Origin: Aequorivita soesokkakensis
Lineage (GTDB): Bacteria; Bacteroidota; Bacteroidia; Flavobacteriales; Flavobacteriaceae
Direction: 5' to 3'
Length of the DNA stretch: 64,000 nt
NCBI RefSeq assembly: GCF_001641085.1
Contig: NZ_LXIE01000011.1
Span: forward strand, 1 to 64,000
The translations under genes were made by a program, and so were the position numbers. How positions within the stretch are numbered: the stretch's first letter is position 1; the number at the start of each line of letters is the position of its first letter. This document shows, in pieces, positions 49,484 to 64,000 of the stretch. The notes under the pieces were generated by a model, which worked only from the letters and a program-made list of their open reading frames with translations, searched no databases and was not told where the DNA came from.

Positions 49484-51058
49484 CTAGTTTGTCAATTCAA
49501 TAATTACAGGAGAAATCTTTTTCAGTTTATAACCTGAATTTCCTGCAAGGTTTGCATTTATATCAAAAATTTGAACAGCATCTCCACGTTGTGCTCTTCT
49601 TAGCGCACCTTTAGCTGCTGAATCTAATTTTGTTCCGTTTACTTTAACCGTTGGTTGTCCAGAAACTTTAAAGCTGAATCCTGTAACGTTAATATTCAGT
49701 TCGAAATCAAAATCTTGCAATACAGCAGAGATTGTTGAAATTTCAAGACCTCCTCGTTCCATTCGAACGATTCCAGTTTCTCCACGGATGGCTCCCACTG
49801 GTGGTGGAATATCTTTAATACGGAATTCAGCTGGAGTTCTAACTCCTGTTCCATCAGGCAAAGTTCCACTTGCTGTAATTGTTACTGTTCTTCCAGCTCC
49901 TGGTCGCATAACATATTTACTTCCAGAAACCTTGGAAAGACCTGGAGCGGATGCATTTACTTTATTATCAGGAATACCAGGTATAGAAACCGTCATTGGG
50001 TTGTCTACACCGCGATACACTACATTCATTTTATCTGCAGCAATTACTGCTGAATTTGGTTTTGATATTGTTGAAAATCCTAAGCTAACTGGAATTTTTG
50101 TTTCTTTTTCATTTTCAAGGAAAATTAAATTCCCTTCAATTTTATGATCTCCAGGAGCACCAGCGCTTATTTTAAGCATTACTTTACCACTTTCAATAGC
50201 ATATTGATCTTCACTTAATGCTCTTCCATCTAAAGTAAGCTCTACACGGTTTGGCTTAGTATTTGGATCTTTACGTCCAAGAACAATACCGCCATCAAAT
50301 TCCTCACCAGCATAGTATGCAGTTTTAGAAGTTTCTAATAATGTGTTGTATTGCGTAAAAGACATAGCAGTAGCTTGTTGGCCAGCTAACATTTTTTGCA
50401 AAACTTCACTTTTGGTAGTCTTTATGTCAGCTTGAATCTGGGTAAGCTTAGTTAAAGATGCTATCAAAGGAAAACCTTCATAATTGTATTTTAACCACTC
50501 TTCTTTTTTTCCGTCTCTGTTTGTAACTTCATCTGTCGAAAAATTTGTTTCAATGGATTTTTTCACATCTTCAATACCAGCAAATTTTGTCAATGTTGTA
50601 TCAGACAAAATTTTAATCATTTCTGTACGATAATTATTTATCTTATCAAGAAATTCTTGACCTTCTGGCTTATAATTTTCTCCGGTAAAAAATAGATTGT
50701 TAAAAAAATCAGCTTTGTCCATTACTTCATAATCCCTTGGATCTTCGATATCTTTAATTGAAGCCGATTTTAGATTAGTAATATATAAATCTAAATCGTC
50801 AGAAACTTTAGAAATATCGTCAGCTTTTGCTTTTACACCAGCATACTGTGCCGATTGTTCAGAAGCTTTAACAGCTAAACCTTCCATAAAAGCGGTGTTG
50901 CGCTGTGTAGTTGCCACGTTGGCATCTGTTATTTTTTCATTCAATAATCCAAAAGCAGATAATACTTCTTTGGACATGTTTAATGCAAGCATCGCGATGA
51001 AAACCAGATACATCAGGTTAATCATCTTCTGCCTTGGGGATAGTTTTCCTCCTGCCAT
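49484..51058 (-). CDS. gldM: Gliding motility/type IX motor protein GldM
   Basis: This 524-residue protein has one N-terminal membrane helix (about residues 13-31, inside KMINLMYLVFIAMLALNMSK) and a long periplasmic part of stacked beta domains. GldM and GldL form the proton-driven motor that powers type IX secretion and gliding; GldM spans the periplasm. The IRGETGIVRMERGGLEI segment is typical. It lies 43 bp after gldL. Confidence 0.95.
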   Translation of the reverse strand: MAGGKLSPRQKMINLMYLVFIAMLALNMSKEVLSAFGLLNEKITDANVATTQRNTAFMEGLAVKASEQSAQYAGVKAKADDISKVSDDLDLYITNLKSASIKDIEDPRDYEVMDKADFFNNLFFTGENYKPEGQEFLDKINNYRTEMIKILSDTTLTKFAGIEDVKKSIETNFSTDEVTNRDGKKEEWLKYNYEGFPLIASLTKLTQIQADIKTTKSEVLQKMLAGQQATAMSFTQYNTLLETSKTAYYAGEEFDGGIVLGRKDPNTKPNRVELTLDGRALSEDQYAIESGKVMLKISAGAPGDHKIEGNLIFLENEKETKIPVSLGFSTISKPNSAVIAADKMNVVYRGVDNPMTVSIPGIPDNKVNASAPGLSKVSGSKYVMRPGAGRTVTITASGTLPDGTGVRTPAEFRIKDIPPPVGAIRGETGIVRMERGGLEISTISAVLQDFDFELNINVTGFSFKVSGQPTVKVNGTKLDSAAKGALRRAQRGDAVQIFDINANLAGNSGYKLKKISPVIIELTN

Positions 51059-57872: not shown

Positions 57873-57924
57873 ATTTCTTTATAATTTGGTTAGTCCACAA
57901 ATCTATGAAAAAGAAATCTGCCAC

Positions 57925-57955
57925 TTTGTCACCGTTGCTTAAAATTGTATCTTTG
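57925..57955 (+). promoter_or_regulatory. miaB promoter
   Basis: TTTG (57925-57928), a 19-nt spacer and TATCTTTG (57948-57955) match the Bacteroidota promoter consensus in full. It lies 48 bp before the miaB ATG and probably drives the operon. Confidence 0.8.
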
Positions 57956-58003: not shown

Positions 58004-59449
58004 ATGGAAAAGATTATTGACGAAAAAACACAGGGAAACACGCTAACACTGGAAGCACGCGAAGGCAATTCCCGCAAACTATATATTGAAAGCTACGGCT
58101 GCGCTATGAATTTTAGCGATAGCGAGATTGTGGCTTCAATTCTTGCGGACCAAGGCTTTAACACTACAAATTCACTCGAAGAAGCCGATTTGGTTTTGGT
58201 AAACACCTGCTCCATCCGTGATAAAGCCGAGCAAACCGTTCGGAAACGTCTTGAAAAATACAACGCCGTAAAGCGAATAAATCCAAAAATGAAGGTTGGC
58301 GTTTTGGGCTGTATGGCTGAACGTTTAAAGGAAAAATTTCTTGAAGAGGAAAAAATTGTCGATTTGGTTGTTGGGCCTGACGCCTATAAAGACATTCCGA
58401 ATTTACTGAAAGAAGTTGAGGAAGGCCGGGATGCCGTGAACGTTATTCTTTCAAAAGAAGAAACCTATGGCGATATTTCACCCGTGCGTTTGGGTGGAAA
58501 TGGAATTACCGCTTTTGTGAGCATCACCCGCGGTTGTGATAATATGTGTACGTTTTGCGTCGTGCCTTTTACAAGAGGTCGCGAACGCAGCCGTGATCCG
58601 CAAAGTATTTTACGCGAAGTAAATGATTTGGCTGAAAAAGGGTATAAAGAAATTACGCTGCTCGGTCAAAACGTAGATAGCTATTTATGGTACGGCGGTG
58701 GACTGAAAAAAGATTTCAAAAATGCTTCGGAAATGCAAAAGGCAACCGCTACGGATTTTGCCGTATTGCTTGATATGGTTGCAACGGCTCACCCCAAAAT
58801 GCGAATTCGTTTTTCAACCAGCAATCCGCAGGATATGCACGAAGAAGTATTGCATATTGTAGCGAAACACGACAATATTTGCAACCACATTCACCTTCCC
58901 GTTCAAAGCGGAAGCACGCGGATTTTAAAGAAAATGAACCGCCAGCATACCCGGGAGGAATATATGAAGTTGATTGATAGGATTTGGGAAATCATTCCCG
59001 GTTGTTCCATTTCGCAGGATATGATTATTGGTTTTCCCACGGAAACTGAAGAAGACCATAAAGAAACGATGAGCTTGATGGAATATGTGAAATATGATTT
59101 TGGCTATATGTATAAATATTCCGAAAGGCCCGGCACCATGGCTGCCCGAAAACTGGAAGACGATGTGCCCGAAGAAATTAAAAGCCGAAGATTGACTGAG
59201 ATTGTTGATCTTCAGCAAAAACACAGCGCCATTCGCACAGCGGAATTTTTAGGAAAAATTGTTACTGTTTTGATTGAGAAAGAATCCAAAAAAAACAAAG
59301 ATGAATGGAGCGGAAGAACGGAGCATAATAATGTTGCTGTTTTTCCGAAGGAAAATTACAAAGCGGGAGATTTTGTAAAAGTAAAAGTAACCGATTGCAC
59401 TACGGCTACCCTAATTGGCAAAGCTGTAGGTTTTTCAGGCAACAATTAA
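58004..59449 (+). CDS. miaB: tRNA-2-methylthio-N6-dimethylallyladenosine synthase MiaB
   Basis: This 481-residue radical-SAM enzyme adds the methylthio group at position 37 of tRNAs that read UNN codons. The N-terminal UPF0004 domain has IESYGCAMNFSDSEIV and VLVNTCSIRDKAEQTVRKR and VLGCMAERLKE, each with a cluster cysteine. The radical-SAM site is ITRGCDNMCTFCVVPFTRGR (C-x3-C-x2-C). A TRAM domain closes the protein (about residues 410-478). It is the first gene of a set continuing into the sigma-54 activator three bases later. Confidence 0.95.
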   Translation: MEKIIDEKTQGNTLTLEAREGNSRKLYIESYGCAMNFSDSEIVASILADQGFNTTNSLEEADLVLVNTCSIRDKAEQTVRKRLEKYNAVKRINPKMKVGVLGCMAERLKEKFLEEEKIVDLVVGPDAYKDIPNLLKEVEEGRDAVNVILSKEETYGDISPVRLGGNGITAFVSITRGCDNMCTFCVVPFTRGRERSRDPQSILREVNDLAEKGYKEITLLGQNVDSYLWYGGGLKKDFKNASEMQKATATDFAVLLDMVATAHPKMRIRFSTSNPQDMHEEVLHIVAKHDNICNHIHLPVQSGSTRILKKMNRQHTREEYMKLIDRIWEIIPGCSISQDMIIGFPTETEEDHKETMSLMEYVKYDFGYMYKYSERPGTMAARKLEDDVPEEIKSRRLTEIVDLQQKHSAIRTAEFLGKIVTVLIEKESKKNKDEWSGRTEHNNVAVFPKENYKAGDFVKVKVTDCTTATLIGKAVGFSGNN

Positions 59450-59452
59450 TTT

Positions 59453-60730
59453 ATGGAAAGCATACAAGCAACAAAACAACGTTTCGGAATAATAGGCAAC
59501 GACCCAAAACTGAACCGTGCCGTTGAAAAAGCAATTCAGGTTGCACCTACTGATATTTCTGTATTGGTTACGGGCGAAAGCGGTGTGGGGAAAGAAAGTA
59601 TTCCGAAAATAATCCACTCACTTTCGCACAGAAAGCATGGAAAATACATTGCCGTAAACTGTGGCGCAATCCCCGAAGGAACTATTGATAGCGAACTTTT
59701 TGGTCACGAAAAAGGATCTTTTACGGGCGCAACCGCAACCAGAAGTGGTTATTTTGAAGTAGCCGATGGCGGAACTATTTTTCTTGATGAAGTTGGCGAA
59801 CTGCCGCTACCAACGCAAGTTCGCTTGCTTCGCGTTTTGGAAAATGGCGAATTTTTAAAAGTTGGTTCCTCCGCAGCGCAAAAAACCGATGTTCGTATTG
59901 TTGCCGCAACCAATGTAAAAATGGTCGATGCCATTGAAAAAGGAAAATTTCGCGAAGACCTTTATTATAGGCTGAGTACTGTGGAAATAAATTTGCCACC
60001 ACTTCGCGAACGGCAGGAAGACATACATTTGCTTTTCAGAAAATTTGCGGCGGATTTTGCGCAGAAATATAAAATGCCAACCATCCGTTTGGACGATCAC
60101 GCTACCGAGCTTTTGCTGAAATATCGCTGGAGTGGAAACATTCGCCAACTGCGGAATGTTGCCGAACAGATTTCGGTTTTGGAGCAGAATCGCGAAATTT
60201 CTTATGAAACCTTAAAGCATTATTTGCCAGACATGGGCAGCAATCTTCCCGCAATTGTAAACGCGAAGAAAGCCGAAAGTGATTTCAGTAGCGAGCGGGA
60301 AATTCTTTACAAAGTGCTTTTCGATATGAAACGTGACGTAAACGATCTAAAAAAACTTACTTTGGAATTGATGAAAACGGGAAATACTGCCAAAGTAAAA
60401 GAAGAGCAATCGTCGCTTATCAATAAAATATATTCCGAAGAAAATGAGGCAGAGGAAGAATTGGCATCAATAATTGAGGAAGAAAACAACGGCCAGGAAA
60501 GTGATGTGGAAGTTTTCAGCATTCCCGAAAATGCTTCTGAGACGAGAAAAGACAAATATGAATATGCTGAGGAAATACAAGAAGAAGAAAACCTTTCACT
60601 TCAACAAAAAGAATTGGAACTAATCAAGAAATCGCTGGAAAAATATCACGGAAAACGAAAGGATGCCGCGGATGAGCTGGGCATTTCCGAAAGAACTTTA
60701 TATAGAAAGATAAAGCAGTACGACTTATAG
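59453..60730 (+). CDS. Sigma-54-interacting transcriptional activator without receiver domain
   Basis: This 425-residue AAA+ activator has Walker A TGESGVGKESIPK, the sigma-54-contact loop GSFTGA (instead of GAFTGA) in FGHEKGSFTGATATRSGYFE, Walker B GGTIFLDEVGELPLPTQVRL and ENGEFLKVGSSAAQKTDVRI. The C-terminal Fis-type HTH is KDAADELGISERTLYRKIKQ. It lacks any N-terminal receiver or sensor domain; the AAA+ domain starts within the first 20 residues. A long acidic insert (about residues 265-385) separates it from the HTH. Its targets may include groES. Confidence 0.9.
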   Translation: MESIQATKQRFGIIGNDPKLNRAVEKAIQVAPTDISVLVTGESGVGKESIPKIIHSLSHRKHGKYIAVNCGAIPEGTIDSELFGHEKGSFTGATATRSGYFEVADGGTIFLDEVGELPLPTQVRLLRVLENGEFLKVGSSAAQKTDVRIVAATNVKMVDAIEKGKFREDLYYRLSTVEINLPPLRERQEDIHLLFRKFAADFAQKYKMPTIRLDDHATELLLKYRWSGNIRQLRNVAEQISVLEQNREISYETLKHYLPDMGSNLPAIVNAKKAESDFSSEREILYKVLFDMKRDVNDLKKLTLELMKTGNTAKVKEEQSSLINKIYSEENEAEEELASIIEEENNGQESDVEVFSIPENASETRKDKYEYAEEIQEEENLSLQQKELELIKKSLEKYHGKRKDAADELGISERTLYRKIKQYDL

Positions 60731-60766: not shown

Positions 60767-61279
60767 ATGCGTAAAATATTATTAACAGTATTTCTTATTA
60801 CTTCAACTTTAATTTTGCAAAGTTGCGGCTCATATTCCTTTACGGGTGCGGATATTAATTATACTACCACCAAAACGGTGCAGGTAAACTATTTTCAAAA
60901 CAACGCTCCAATTGTTGAGCCGGGAATTGCACGGGATTTTACACAAAAATTACAGGATTTGTTGCTGAACCAAACCAGTTTGGATTTGGTTAACAGCAGT
61001 GGCGATTTGGTTTACGAGGGAGAAATTACCCAGTTTTATATTTCGCCAATTACTGCAACTTCAAACAGTACAGCTGCTCAAAACAGGTTGACTATTGCAA
61101 TAAATGTGAGATTTTACAACACAAAAGAGCCATTGAAGGATTTTGAGCAACCCTTCAGTTTTTATTACGATTACGATGGCCAGACTCAATTGACCGGCTC
61201 AAAATTGGACGCCGCTGTCGATATTATTTTTGAACGCCTGACGCAGGATATTTTTAACAAATCACTTGCAAATTGGTAG
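60767..61279 (+). CDS. lptE: LptE-like LPS assembly lipoprotein
   Basis: This 170-residue lipoprotein (signal ending LILQSCG, cysteine at about residue 20) has the LptE pattern of Bacteroidota: SFTGADINYTTTKTVQVNYF, FTQKLQDLLLNQTSLDLV and GEITQFYISPITA. LptE plugs the outer-membrane LptD translocon for lipopolysaccharide. It overlaps the next frame by 14 bp and lies in the miaB-to-secG gene set. Confidence 0.85.
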   Translation: MRKILLTVFLITSTLILQSCGSYSFTGADINYTTTKTVQVNYFQNNAPIVEPGIARDFTQKLQDLLLNQTSLDLVNSSGDLVYEGEITQFYISPITATSNSTAAQNRLTIAINVRFYNTKEPLKDFEQPFSFYYDYDGQTQLTGSKLDAAVDIIFERLTQDIFNKSLANW

Positions 61280-62183
61280 CATTTTGAACACATCAAACTT
61301 TACATATTTGCTCGCCAATCCTCAGAAAATAACAGCTGAGGATTTAGCTACTTTGGATTTACTCATTAAGAAATACCCCTATTTTCAGAGTGCTCGGGCA
61401 TTGCAGTTGAAAGGCTTGAAAAACAACGATAGTTTTTTATATAACGATGCGCTGAAGCTTACCGCTGCGCACACAACCGATCGTGATATTCTTTTTGAAT
61501 ATATCACTTCGGAAAAATTTATCCAGAATGAAATTTCGCAATCCATATTGCAGCACGACGCTACGGTTGATGAGATAAAAGTAGTTTCAGAAGATGTTTC
61601 GGAACAAATAAGTCTTGAAATTGATAGGCAACTGAAAGCCGAAATGCAAAAAGCTGAGAATATTCTGAACCCACAACTTTTCCAAAGAAAAGTAGAATCC
61701 GTAACCATTTTAGCTGAAAAAAAGGAAGAAAACCCAGAAGAAATACTTCAGCCAGACAAGCCATTGGAGTTTACTAAAAATGATACGCATTCCTTCTCCG
61801 AATGGTTAAAACTGACTAAGGCAAAACCCATTGAGCGTTTGGAAGATACTTCCGAAGGAAAAAATGACGAACCGAAAAAGGACGATAGAGAGCGAAAATT
61901 TGAATTGATTGATAAATTTATTCAGGAACGCCCAAAAATAATTCCTTCAGAAATAGAAAATAAAGCGCCCAAAGAAGAAAAAACCATTACAGCCAATCCA
62001 CATTCACAACCGTCTGATTCACTAATGACGGAGACTTTGGCGAAAGTTTACCTGCAACAAAAAAACTATAAAAAAGCAATTCAAGCATATAAAATTTTAA
62101 TTTTGAAAAATCCCGAAAAAAGTGGTTTCTTTGCAGACCAAATTCGGGCAATAGAAAAATTGATTAATTCAGAACAATCATGA
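61266..62183 (+). CDS. TPR-like protein of unknown function
   Basis: This protein of up to 305 residues has a TPR-like C-terminus (SLMTETLAKVYLQQKNYKKA, then IQAYKILILKNP). The middle is acidic and Lys/Glu-rich. The start is uncertain: TTG at 61266 overlaps lptE, and TTG at 61284 is also possible; no ATG fits. It is the gene between lptE and secG, with an ATGA overlap with secG. A role in outer-membrane assembly or translocation is only suggested by position. Confidence 0.65.
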   Translation: MQIGSILNTSNFTYLLANPQKITAEDLATLDLLIKKYPYFQSARALQLKGLKNNDSFLYNDALKLTAAHTTDRDILFEYITSEKFIQNEISQSILQHDATVDEIKVVSEDVSEQISLEIDRQLKAEMQKAENILNPQLFQRKVESVTILAEKKEENPEEILQPDKPLEFTKNDTHSFSEWLKLTKAKPIERLEDTSEGKNDEPKKDDRERKFELIDKFIQERPKIIPSEIENKAPKEEKTITANPHSQPSDSLMTETLAKVYLQQKNYKKAIQAYKILILKNPEKSGFFADQIRAIEKLINSEQS

Positions 62184-62512
62184 GTACCTTTACAATATTT
62201 TTAATTTTAATAATGATAGTGGCCTTTTTATTGGTCATAGTTATAATGGTTCAAAACCCAAAAGGCGGCGGGCTTTCATCGTCATTCGGCGGTGGCGGAG
62301 GCGCACAGATTGGTGGCGTTCAAAAAACAAGTGACTTTCTTGATAAAAGTACTTGGACGCTTGCAACCATTATGTTGGCGTTGATTTTATTTTCAAATGT
62401 TTTTATAATGGGCGGTAACAGTTTGCAATCAAAAACTTTTGATCCAAACAGCGTACCAGCAGTACCAACAACGGATACTCCTGCACCAACAGCACCTGAA
62501 ACTACAAACTAA
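62180..62512 (+). CDS. secG: Preprotein translocase subunit SecG
   Basis: This 110-residue protein has two membrane helices (about residues 3-23 and 56-75) joined by VQNPKGGGLSSSFGGGGGAQ, the typical SecG loop, and a short Pro/Thr-rich tail. SecG assists SecYE in export through the inner membrane. It overlaps the upstream gene by 4 bp (ATGA) and is followed by a perfect terminator hairpin, which separates it from groES. Confidence 0.9.
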   Translation: MSTFTIFLILIMIVAFLLVIVIMVQNPKGGGLSSSFGGGGGAQIGGVQKTSDFLDKSTWTLATIMLALILFSNVFIMGGNSLQSKTFDPNSVPAVPTTDTPAPTAPETTN

Positions 62513-62532
62513 TATTTAGTTACAATATATTT

Positions 62533-62566
62533 AAAAATGCCAGCTTCTGACAAGCTGGCATTTTTG
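62533..62566 (+). terminator. Rho-independent terminator after secG
   Basis: AAAAATGCCAGCTT and AAGCTGGCATTTTT form a perfect 14-bp stem with a 5-nt loop, then T-rich sequence. It ends the miaB-to-secG transcript and isolates groES transcription. Confidence 0.9.
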
Positions 62567-62593
62567 TTTTGTAATGTGTCAGTTTATGGGCAG

Positions 62594-62608
62594 TGGCACA
62601 ATTTCTGC
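62594..62608 (+). promoter_or_regulatory. Candidate sigma-54-type promoter of groES-groEL
   Basis: TGGCAC (62594-62599) and TGC (62606-62608) give GG, exactly 10 nt, then GC, the invariant -24/-12 spacing of sigma-54 promoters (consensus TGGCAC-N5-TTGC; here one mismatch in the -12 part). No good TAnnTTTG housekeeping box is evident in this leader. The groES ATG lies 56 bp downstream. Confidence 0.55.
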
Positions 62609-62626
62609 CAATTAGCAATCAAACAT

Positions 62627-62642
62627 TTAAACTCAAGTTTAA
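62627..62642. promoter_or_regulatory. Perfect inverted repeat in the groES leader
   Basis: TTAAACT-CA-AGTTTAA is a perfect 7-bp inverted repeat with a 2-bp spacer, about 20 bp after the -12 element and 21 bp before the groES ATG. It is not a CIRCE element. It may be an operator. Confidence 0.45.
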
Positions 62643-62663
62643 CAACTAAAAAATAAAATTGAA

Positions 62664-62939
62664 ATGGCATTAAAAATTCAACCACTTGCAGACCGCGTTT
62701 TAGTTCAGCCGCAAGAAGCTGAGACTAAGACCGCATCTGGAATTTACATTCCTGATTCCGCAAAGGAAAAACCGCAACAAGGTAAAGTAGTAGCTGTGGG
62801 CAAAGGCAAAGAAGACCACAAAATGACCGTGAAGGTTGGCGATACCGTTCTTTACGGAAAATACTCTGGCAGCGAATTAAAGTTTGATGGCAAAGACTAC
62901 CTGATTATGCGCGAGGATGATATTTTAGCCATCATCTAA
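62664..62939 (+). CDS. groES: Co-chaperonin GroES
   Basis: This 91-residue protein is the lid of the GroEL chaperonin. [20 protein letters not shown] is the conserved first strand, [20 protein letters not shown] the mobile loop (with the usual Ile-x-x-Pro-type contact), and GTGKE-like [20 protein letters not shown] completes it. The length is typical. It is the first gene of groES-groEL, with an unusually long 154-bp spacer that carries repeats and hairpins. Confidence 0.97.
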
Positions 62940-62958: not shown

Positions 62959-63014
62959 AAATTCCAAAATTTGGGATTTGGGATTTGGGATTTGGGATTT
63001 TTATTTTGGAATTT
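62959..63014. repeat. Heptamer array within an inverted repeat, groES-groEL spacer
   Basis: Four copies of TTTGGGA (62970-62997) lie between perfect 12-bp inverted arms, AAATTCCAAAAT (62959-62970) and ATTTTGGAATTT (63003-63014). In mRNA this would be a stem with a repeat-filled loop in the groES-groEL transcript. Confidence 0.85.

Positions 63015-63051: not shown

Positions 63052-64000
<949 letters not shown>

Follow-up and report, generated by a model that had tools for sequence, protein, structure and literature searches.

A receiver-less activator encoded beside groES-groEL as the likely regulator of the sigma-54 heat-shock regulon in flavobacteria

The groES-groEL locus and its promoter

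The DNA considered here, called the window, is a stretch of 64,000 nucleotides from Aequorivita soesokkakensis, and the genes described below lie on its forward strand. They begin with a gene for a miaB-like tRNA methylthiotransferase (58004-59449; Pfam UPF0004, Radical_SAM and TRAM), the first gene of an operon, which is followed by an ORF encoding a receiver-less sigma-54 activator with an AAA+ domain, a GSFTGA loop and a C-terminal Fis-type HTH (59453-60730); this is the protein we propose as the activator of groES-groEL. Further downstream are lptE (60767-61279; Pfam LptE), an ORF of conserved position and uncertain start that matches no Pfam family (61266-62183), and secG (62180-62512; Pfam SecG). 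Then come groES (62664-62939; Pfam Cpn10) and groEL (63076-63999; Pfam Cpn60_TCP1), the latter cut off by the end of the window and with a likely true start at 63094. Among named genomes, those of Aequorivita are closest by groES.

The initial annotation had placed a perfect terminator between groES and the upstream genes, and this was borne out: an intrinsic terminator with 15 pairs and a T-run (62532-62566, forward strand) stands 3' of secG and insulates groES. The sequence of the hairpin differs among genera, and the hairpin itself is found in most loci. We rejected the idea that it acts solely as an enhancer of groES, since in several genera unrelated terminators replace the sequence while TGTCAG-N11-TGGCA stays. 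Extra DNA between secG and groES was seen in loci L010, L011, L013, L026, L028, L032, L033 and L037, where groES keeps its own promoter; several of these loci have a hairpin terminator directly 5' of groES. Small palindromic repeats are inserted downstream of the sigma-54 promoter, ahead of the groES start codon, in L009, L010, L012 (CCCGCC..GGCAGG type), L017, L033 and L037, and the groES-groEL gap of the window has a similar hairpin and GGGATTT repeats (63058-63077 and about 62970-63005).

A -24/-12 element, TGGCACAATTTCTGCC, is located at 62594-62609 on the forward strand. It contains TGGCAC-N6-TGC (62594-62608), so that the GG at 62595-62596 is separated by 10 bases from the GC at 62607-62608, just as had been read at first; this is the GG and G(C) of a sigma-54 promoter at the fixed N10 distance, in a TGGCAY-N5-TTG-like frame. 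Transcription is predicted to start at 62620, the position given by the sigma-54 rule, 12 nt past the -12 C and about 44 nt 5' of the groES ATG. The GG-N10-GC pair alone is weak evidence, because TGGCANNNNNNYTGC has 42 matches in the 3.19 Mb genome versus 27 for the reversed pattern. What lifts the groES promoter beyond chance is its conservation: TGGCAY is present upstream of groES in 80 of 81 loci (one from the window, 80 from relatives), and G occupies -13 in all 80 of the loci with TGGCAY, with a spacer between the two that drifts across loci. The base at -12, in contrast, is free among these 80 loci (A in 42, C in 31 and T in 7), and thus the family rule is GG-N10-G rather than the GG-N10-GC that was to be looked for in relatives; that check succeeded for TGGCAY and the -13 G and failed for the -12 C. 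The TAnnTTTG box of Bacteroidota sigma-A promoters, which the first reading had not clearly seen, has no exact match in 62513-62663, and one-mismatch matches are found at 62526, 62559, 62564 and 62654. Reading TGTCAG (62577-62582) together with TGGCATAAT as a -35/-10 pair or as TTTG/TAnnTTTG was rejected owing to the misfit of the -7 box and the invariant -13 G. Judged by its conservation, the sequence 5' of groES-groEL is a genuine sigma-54 promoter, of a kind already known in flavobacteria.

In a 2021 map of transcription start sites in Flavobacterium psychrophilum, Table 2A lists sigma-54 (SM4) promoters at groES-groEL, dnaK, grpE-dnaJ, htpG, lon and clpB, and groES has a mapped start with a -24/-12 motif (PMC9723704). 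The SM4 cluster B254 of that study (groES-groEL, lon, dnaK, grpE-dnaJ and htpG) corresponds in genes and in -24/-12 motif type to what we find, and the neighbourhood is the same, with the activator as 0733, lptE as 0732 and groES-groEL as 0729-0728 (PMC9723704). A sigma-54 regulon predicted in 2025 reports groEL, groES, grpE, dnaJ and dnaK as enriched in Flavobacteriia, Bacteroidia and Cytophagia (PMC12316311). The initial view of sigma-54-driven chaperonin expression as something unusual for this phylum is thus wrong: the F. psychrophilum map had already given groES-groEL such a promoter (PMC9723704), and the prediction extends it across Bacteroidota classes (PMC12316311).

HrcA/CIRCE and RpoH control the same kind of target genes in other bacteria, and the initial annotation could not see HrcA/CIRCE control here. 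Neither could we: HrcA was found in none of 30 genomes, against 7 of 14 controls, and CIRCE (TTAGCACTC-N9-GAGTGCTAA) is absent, with at least 7 mismatches out of 18 at groES (7 in the best match) and at least 5 at dnaK. TTAGCAATC at 62611 was considered as a CIRCE half-site and discarded, as the second half is missing and the sequence is not conserved. For F. psychrophilum, the sigma factors listed are sigma-A, sigma-54 and ECF factors, and RpoH is absent by that list (PMC9723704). With HrcA missing and RpoH not known in this group of Bacteroidota, the way in which chaperones are induced was an open question.

The TGNCA-N3-TGNCA dyad

The promoters of dnaK, grpE and htpG, in the genus and in other families, are of the sigma-54 type too, and each has a dyad, TGNCA-N3-TGNCA, 12-13 bp 5' of the -24 element. 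In the genome of the window the arrangements are TGCCATCATGGCA-N12-TGGCAC at dnaK, TGACATTTTGACA-N12-TGGCAG at grpE and TGACAAGGTGGCA-N13-TGGTAT at htpG. The composite TGNCA-N3-TGNCA-N12-TGGCAY gave at least 87 matches in at least 70 of 80 Flavobacteriaceae genomes, against 1 match for the reversed control; 30 of the matching loci were fetched, 28 of them were identified, and all 28 lie 5' of dnaK or htpG. Among 30 relatives the dyad was present upstream of dnaK in 21/29, of grpE in 23/30 and of htpG in 22/27 cases (shuffled sequences, at most 0.3%), and nearly all of these loci have a gap of 12-13 bp between dyad and TGG.

At groES the situation is less simple. The proximal position of the window holds a half-site, TGTCAG (62577-62582, forward strand), with the 12-bp gap to the -24 element that the dnaK and grpE dyads also show; it corresponds to the right half of the dyad and, counted from TGTCA, stands exactly 12 bp 5' of TGGCA in 61 of 80 groES loci. 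The full dyad is distal: TGACA-N3-TGGCA (TGACAAGCTGGCA, 62548-62560), a candidate distal activator site, is situated within the terminator hairpin. A dyad with spacing 3 occurs in 58 of 81 groES upstream regions, above every other spacing, and the hairpin could partly explain this conservation; 10 of the 81 loci have no dyad by the pattern used. Elsewhere in the window, a dyad at 50912 is regarded as fortuitous, with about 0.8 expected in 64 kb.

The regulon is not uniform, because the sigma-54-type promoter of lon, although highly conserved (within the genus it reads AACTGGCAYAACTCTTGAA; for instance L212 in the genome of the window, and L201-L228), is mostly without the dyad. Another activator, or a weaker or more distant site, may thus serve lon.

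The dyad was also found upstream of the operon that encodes the activator. There, TGCCACTTTGTCA (57919-57931), a proposed autoregulation operator 5' of miaB, is followed by TATCTTTG (57948-57955, forward strand), which matches the Bacteroidota sigma-A -7 box TAnnTTTG. This dyad is present in 60 of 60 family loci with a readable upstream region, as compared with a chance expectation, obtained by shuffling, of about 0.0015 per upstream region. Here as in the other comparisons, the genomes are related and do not count as independent samples. Its distance to the -7 box is 16-19 bp in 55 of the 60 loci, and nearly all order-level genomes that were read have the dyad as well. In genome G025 the activator was not found in the miaB-groES cluster, and a dyad still precedes the activator gene by about 70 bp (L378); in G028, a single-activator genome, no dyad was found near the activator operon. 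None was found near the other three sigma-54 activators of the genome to which the window belongs, with 3.5 kb examined for each. The miaB promoter is not the sole promoter of the activator, since an internal SM5 promoter was assigned to the unit of activator (locus tag 0733) and lptE in F. psychrophilum (PMC9723704).

The activator and the genomes that keep it

The ORF at 59453-60730 is what had been suspected, a sigma-54 AAA+ activator without a sensory domain, made up of AAA+ domain, lid and HTH. The AAA+ domain (PF00158, residues 13-179, E 2e-66) is followed by the lid, and the Fis-type HTH (PF02954) covers residues 386-423. No N-terminal regulatory domain or extension was found in this protein, whose AAA+ domain starts at residue 13, or in any aligned orthologue, as in the receiver-less subgroup around PspF. 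In the alignment the orthologues keep GESGVGKE, G(S/A)FTGA and TIFLDEVGELP, and the recognition region of the HTH is nearly invariant across families. Between lid and HTH the protein has a conserved segment, SEREILYKVLFDMKRDVNDLKK (residues about 280-301, window 60290-60355). It matches no Pfam family, most families retain it, the reduced genomes among them, and it may serve to sense a signal or to bind a partner.

The genome of the window encodes rpoN and four sigma-54 activators, and the other three, as read from their sequences, start with a receiver-like segment. In several families a second activator-like protein with receiver and AAA+ domains is encoded a few kb from grpE (L001 at G000:C4:47089-47589, and G018, G020 and G022). 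The copy in the genome of the window lacks an HTH and has GAFTSA instead of GAFTGA. This 387-aa receiver-type protein was considered as the heat-shock regulator and rejected, given the missing HTH, the GAFTSA loop and its loss in single-activator genomes.

Genomes with a single sigma-54 activator occur in families f8, f11, f12 and f16, and the activator that they retain is always the receiver-less type, 58-72% identical. Some of those in f16 measure 345 kb or about 620 kb and, going by size and family, may be insect endosymbionts of the Blattabacterium or Sulcia kind. The order miaB-activator-secG-groES-groEL survives in reduced genomes, and rpoN is encoded in two of them, G134 and G112. Because sigma-54 promoters need an activator, the receiver-less protein must serve those that are left in single-activator genomes. 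In G134, where 620.0 of 624.0 kb were scanned, six exact dyads were found: five lie 5' of grpE, groES, the activator operon, a transporter-like gene and one further gene, and one lies within a PNPase-like coding sequence. The 300 kb scanned out of the 345 kb of G112 contain two, one 5' of groES and one inside the PNPase-like coding gene, as in G134. No sigma-54 activator was found in G157 and G207, two genomes of f11 that are 95-96% complete.

Proposed regulation and its alternatives

We propose the following scenario. The groES-groEL genes would be transcribed from the sigma-54 promoter at 62594-62608 and activated by the protein encoded four genes upstream. Its Fis-type HTH would bind TGNCA-N3-TGNCA dyads, and the bound activator would open the sigma-54 holoenzyme at groES-groEL, dnaK, grpE and htpG. 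It may also bind the dyad at the upstream edge of its own sigma-A promoter and in this way adjust how much of it is made, probably through repression; as that dyad overlaps the upstream part of the promoter, binding there should limit synthesis of the activator. Since the protein has no N-terminal sensor, the signal would probably act through the amount of activator, through its interaction with a partner such as a chaperone, or by way of the SEREILYKVLFDMKRDVNDLKK segment. The activator is taken as the reader of the dyad because the dyad marks its own operon, because none was found in the 3.5 kb around each of the other activators, and because it is the sole activator left in reduced genomes. 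On these grounds we consider it highly likely that the sigma-54 heat-shock regulon of flavobacteria is under the control of a receiver-less activator that also regulates itself. The wider claim we hold to be likely: that the master regulator of the heat-shock response in Flavobacteriales is a single receiver-less activator, encoded next to groES, which reads the dyads at groES, dnaK, grpE, htpG and its own promoter, replaces RpoH and HrcA, and is the last sigma-54 activator even in genomes of 345 kb.

Of the original suggestion that sigma-54 controls groES-groEL through a nearby activator, the sigma-54 part is confirmed by conservation and by the start site mapped in F. psychrophilum (PMC9723704) and was already described in the family, and the part concerning the activator is strongly supported by genome comparison. 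That the nearby activator regulates groES-groEL is very probably right and is new within the literature searched: no publication naming the activator or its site was found in a search that reached few subscription papers. The main text on F. psychrophilum names neither an activator nor an upstream site for the SM4 promoters (PMC9723704), and the 2025 regulon is a promoter scan in which, in its available text, the activator is unassigned (PMC12316311); here we propose both an activator and a site.

Which protein reads the dyad is the point at which a different explanation deserves most attention. The sigma-54 promoter could be real and the dyad bound by another heat-shock regulator, with activation left to receiver-type or to several activators. 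Sites of sigma-54 activators are typically farther from -24 than 12 bp, and the unusual closeness of the dyads counts against reading them as activator sites; lon, with its promoter and mostly without a dyad, also fits this alternative, as does the first published account, which left the activators of the F. psychrophilum sigma-54 promoters open among three candidates (PMC9723704). We nevertheless regard it as unlikely, since single-activator genomes keep only the protein of the window's type and the dyad marks the promoter of that very protein and was not found in the 3.5 kb around any of the other three activators.

The constant gap of 12-13 bp to -24 at groES, dnaK, grpE and htpG would also suit an additional contact made by the sigma-54 holoenzyme, with TGTCAG and the dyad not being activator sites at all. 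Such a contact would hardly be expected at the sigma-A promoter of the activator operon, which is without -24/-12 elements, nor does it agree with dyads at other distances at groES of reduced genomes or with the mostly dyad-less lon promoters, and we find it very improbable. Least credible is transcription of groES by sigma-A, with GG-N10-GC as a chance match. The bare pattern is indeed common in the genome, as its counts against the reversed control show, but chance would not leave TGGCAY and the -13 G almost invariant over 80 loci around a drifting spacer; the region has no TAnnTTTG, and the start mapped in F. psychrophilum is of the sigma-54 type (PMC9723704).

Known regulators offer partial parallels to the dyad-reading activator that we favour. 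PspF of enterobacteria is a receiver-less enhancer-binding protein consisting of AAA+ and HTH, with negative autoregulation at a sigma-70-type promoter; PspF, NtrC and NorR are all known autorepressors. The activator of the window resembles PspF in having AAA+ and HTH parts only, in the sigma-54 target operon nearby and in the autoregulation proposed for it. It differs in the long linker ahead of the HTH and in its targets, which, as far as the sites indicate, would be cytosolic chaperones, whereas those of PspF are phage-shock genes and PspF is held back by PspA. NorR recognizes a GT-N7-AC dyad and thus likewise provides a short dyad, of about 11-13 bp, for the Fis-type HTH of a sigma-54 activator; unlike the protein described here, it senses nitric oxide through a GAF domain, its sites lie distal to -24, and their base content is different. 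Compared with HrcA/CIRCE, the targets are shared, but HrcA is missing in 30/30 genomes and CIRCE near groES.

Sigma-54 had already been implicated in chaperone expression, and the activator and its site now become concrete: one gene, one 13-bp dyad and a few promoters. If the proposal is true, sigma-54 in genomes of 345 kb would serve mainly proteostasis, which could explain why rpoN and one activator persist in extremely reduced genomes of the order. In G134, two further dyads, L335 (G134:C1, near 289264) and L332 (G134:C1, near 228296), stand ahead of the transporter-like gene and a 594-aa ORF, which are possible additional members of the regulon.
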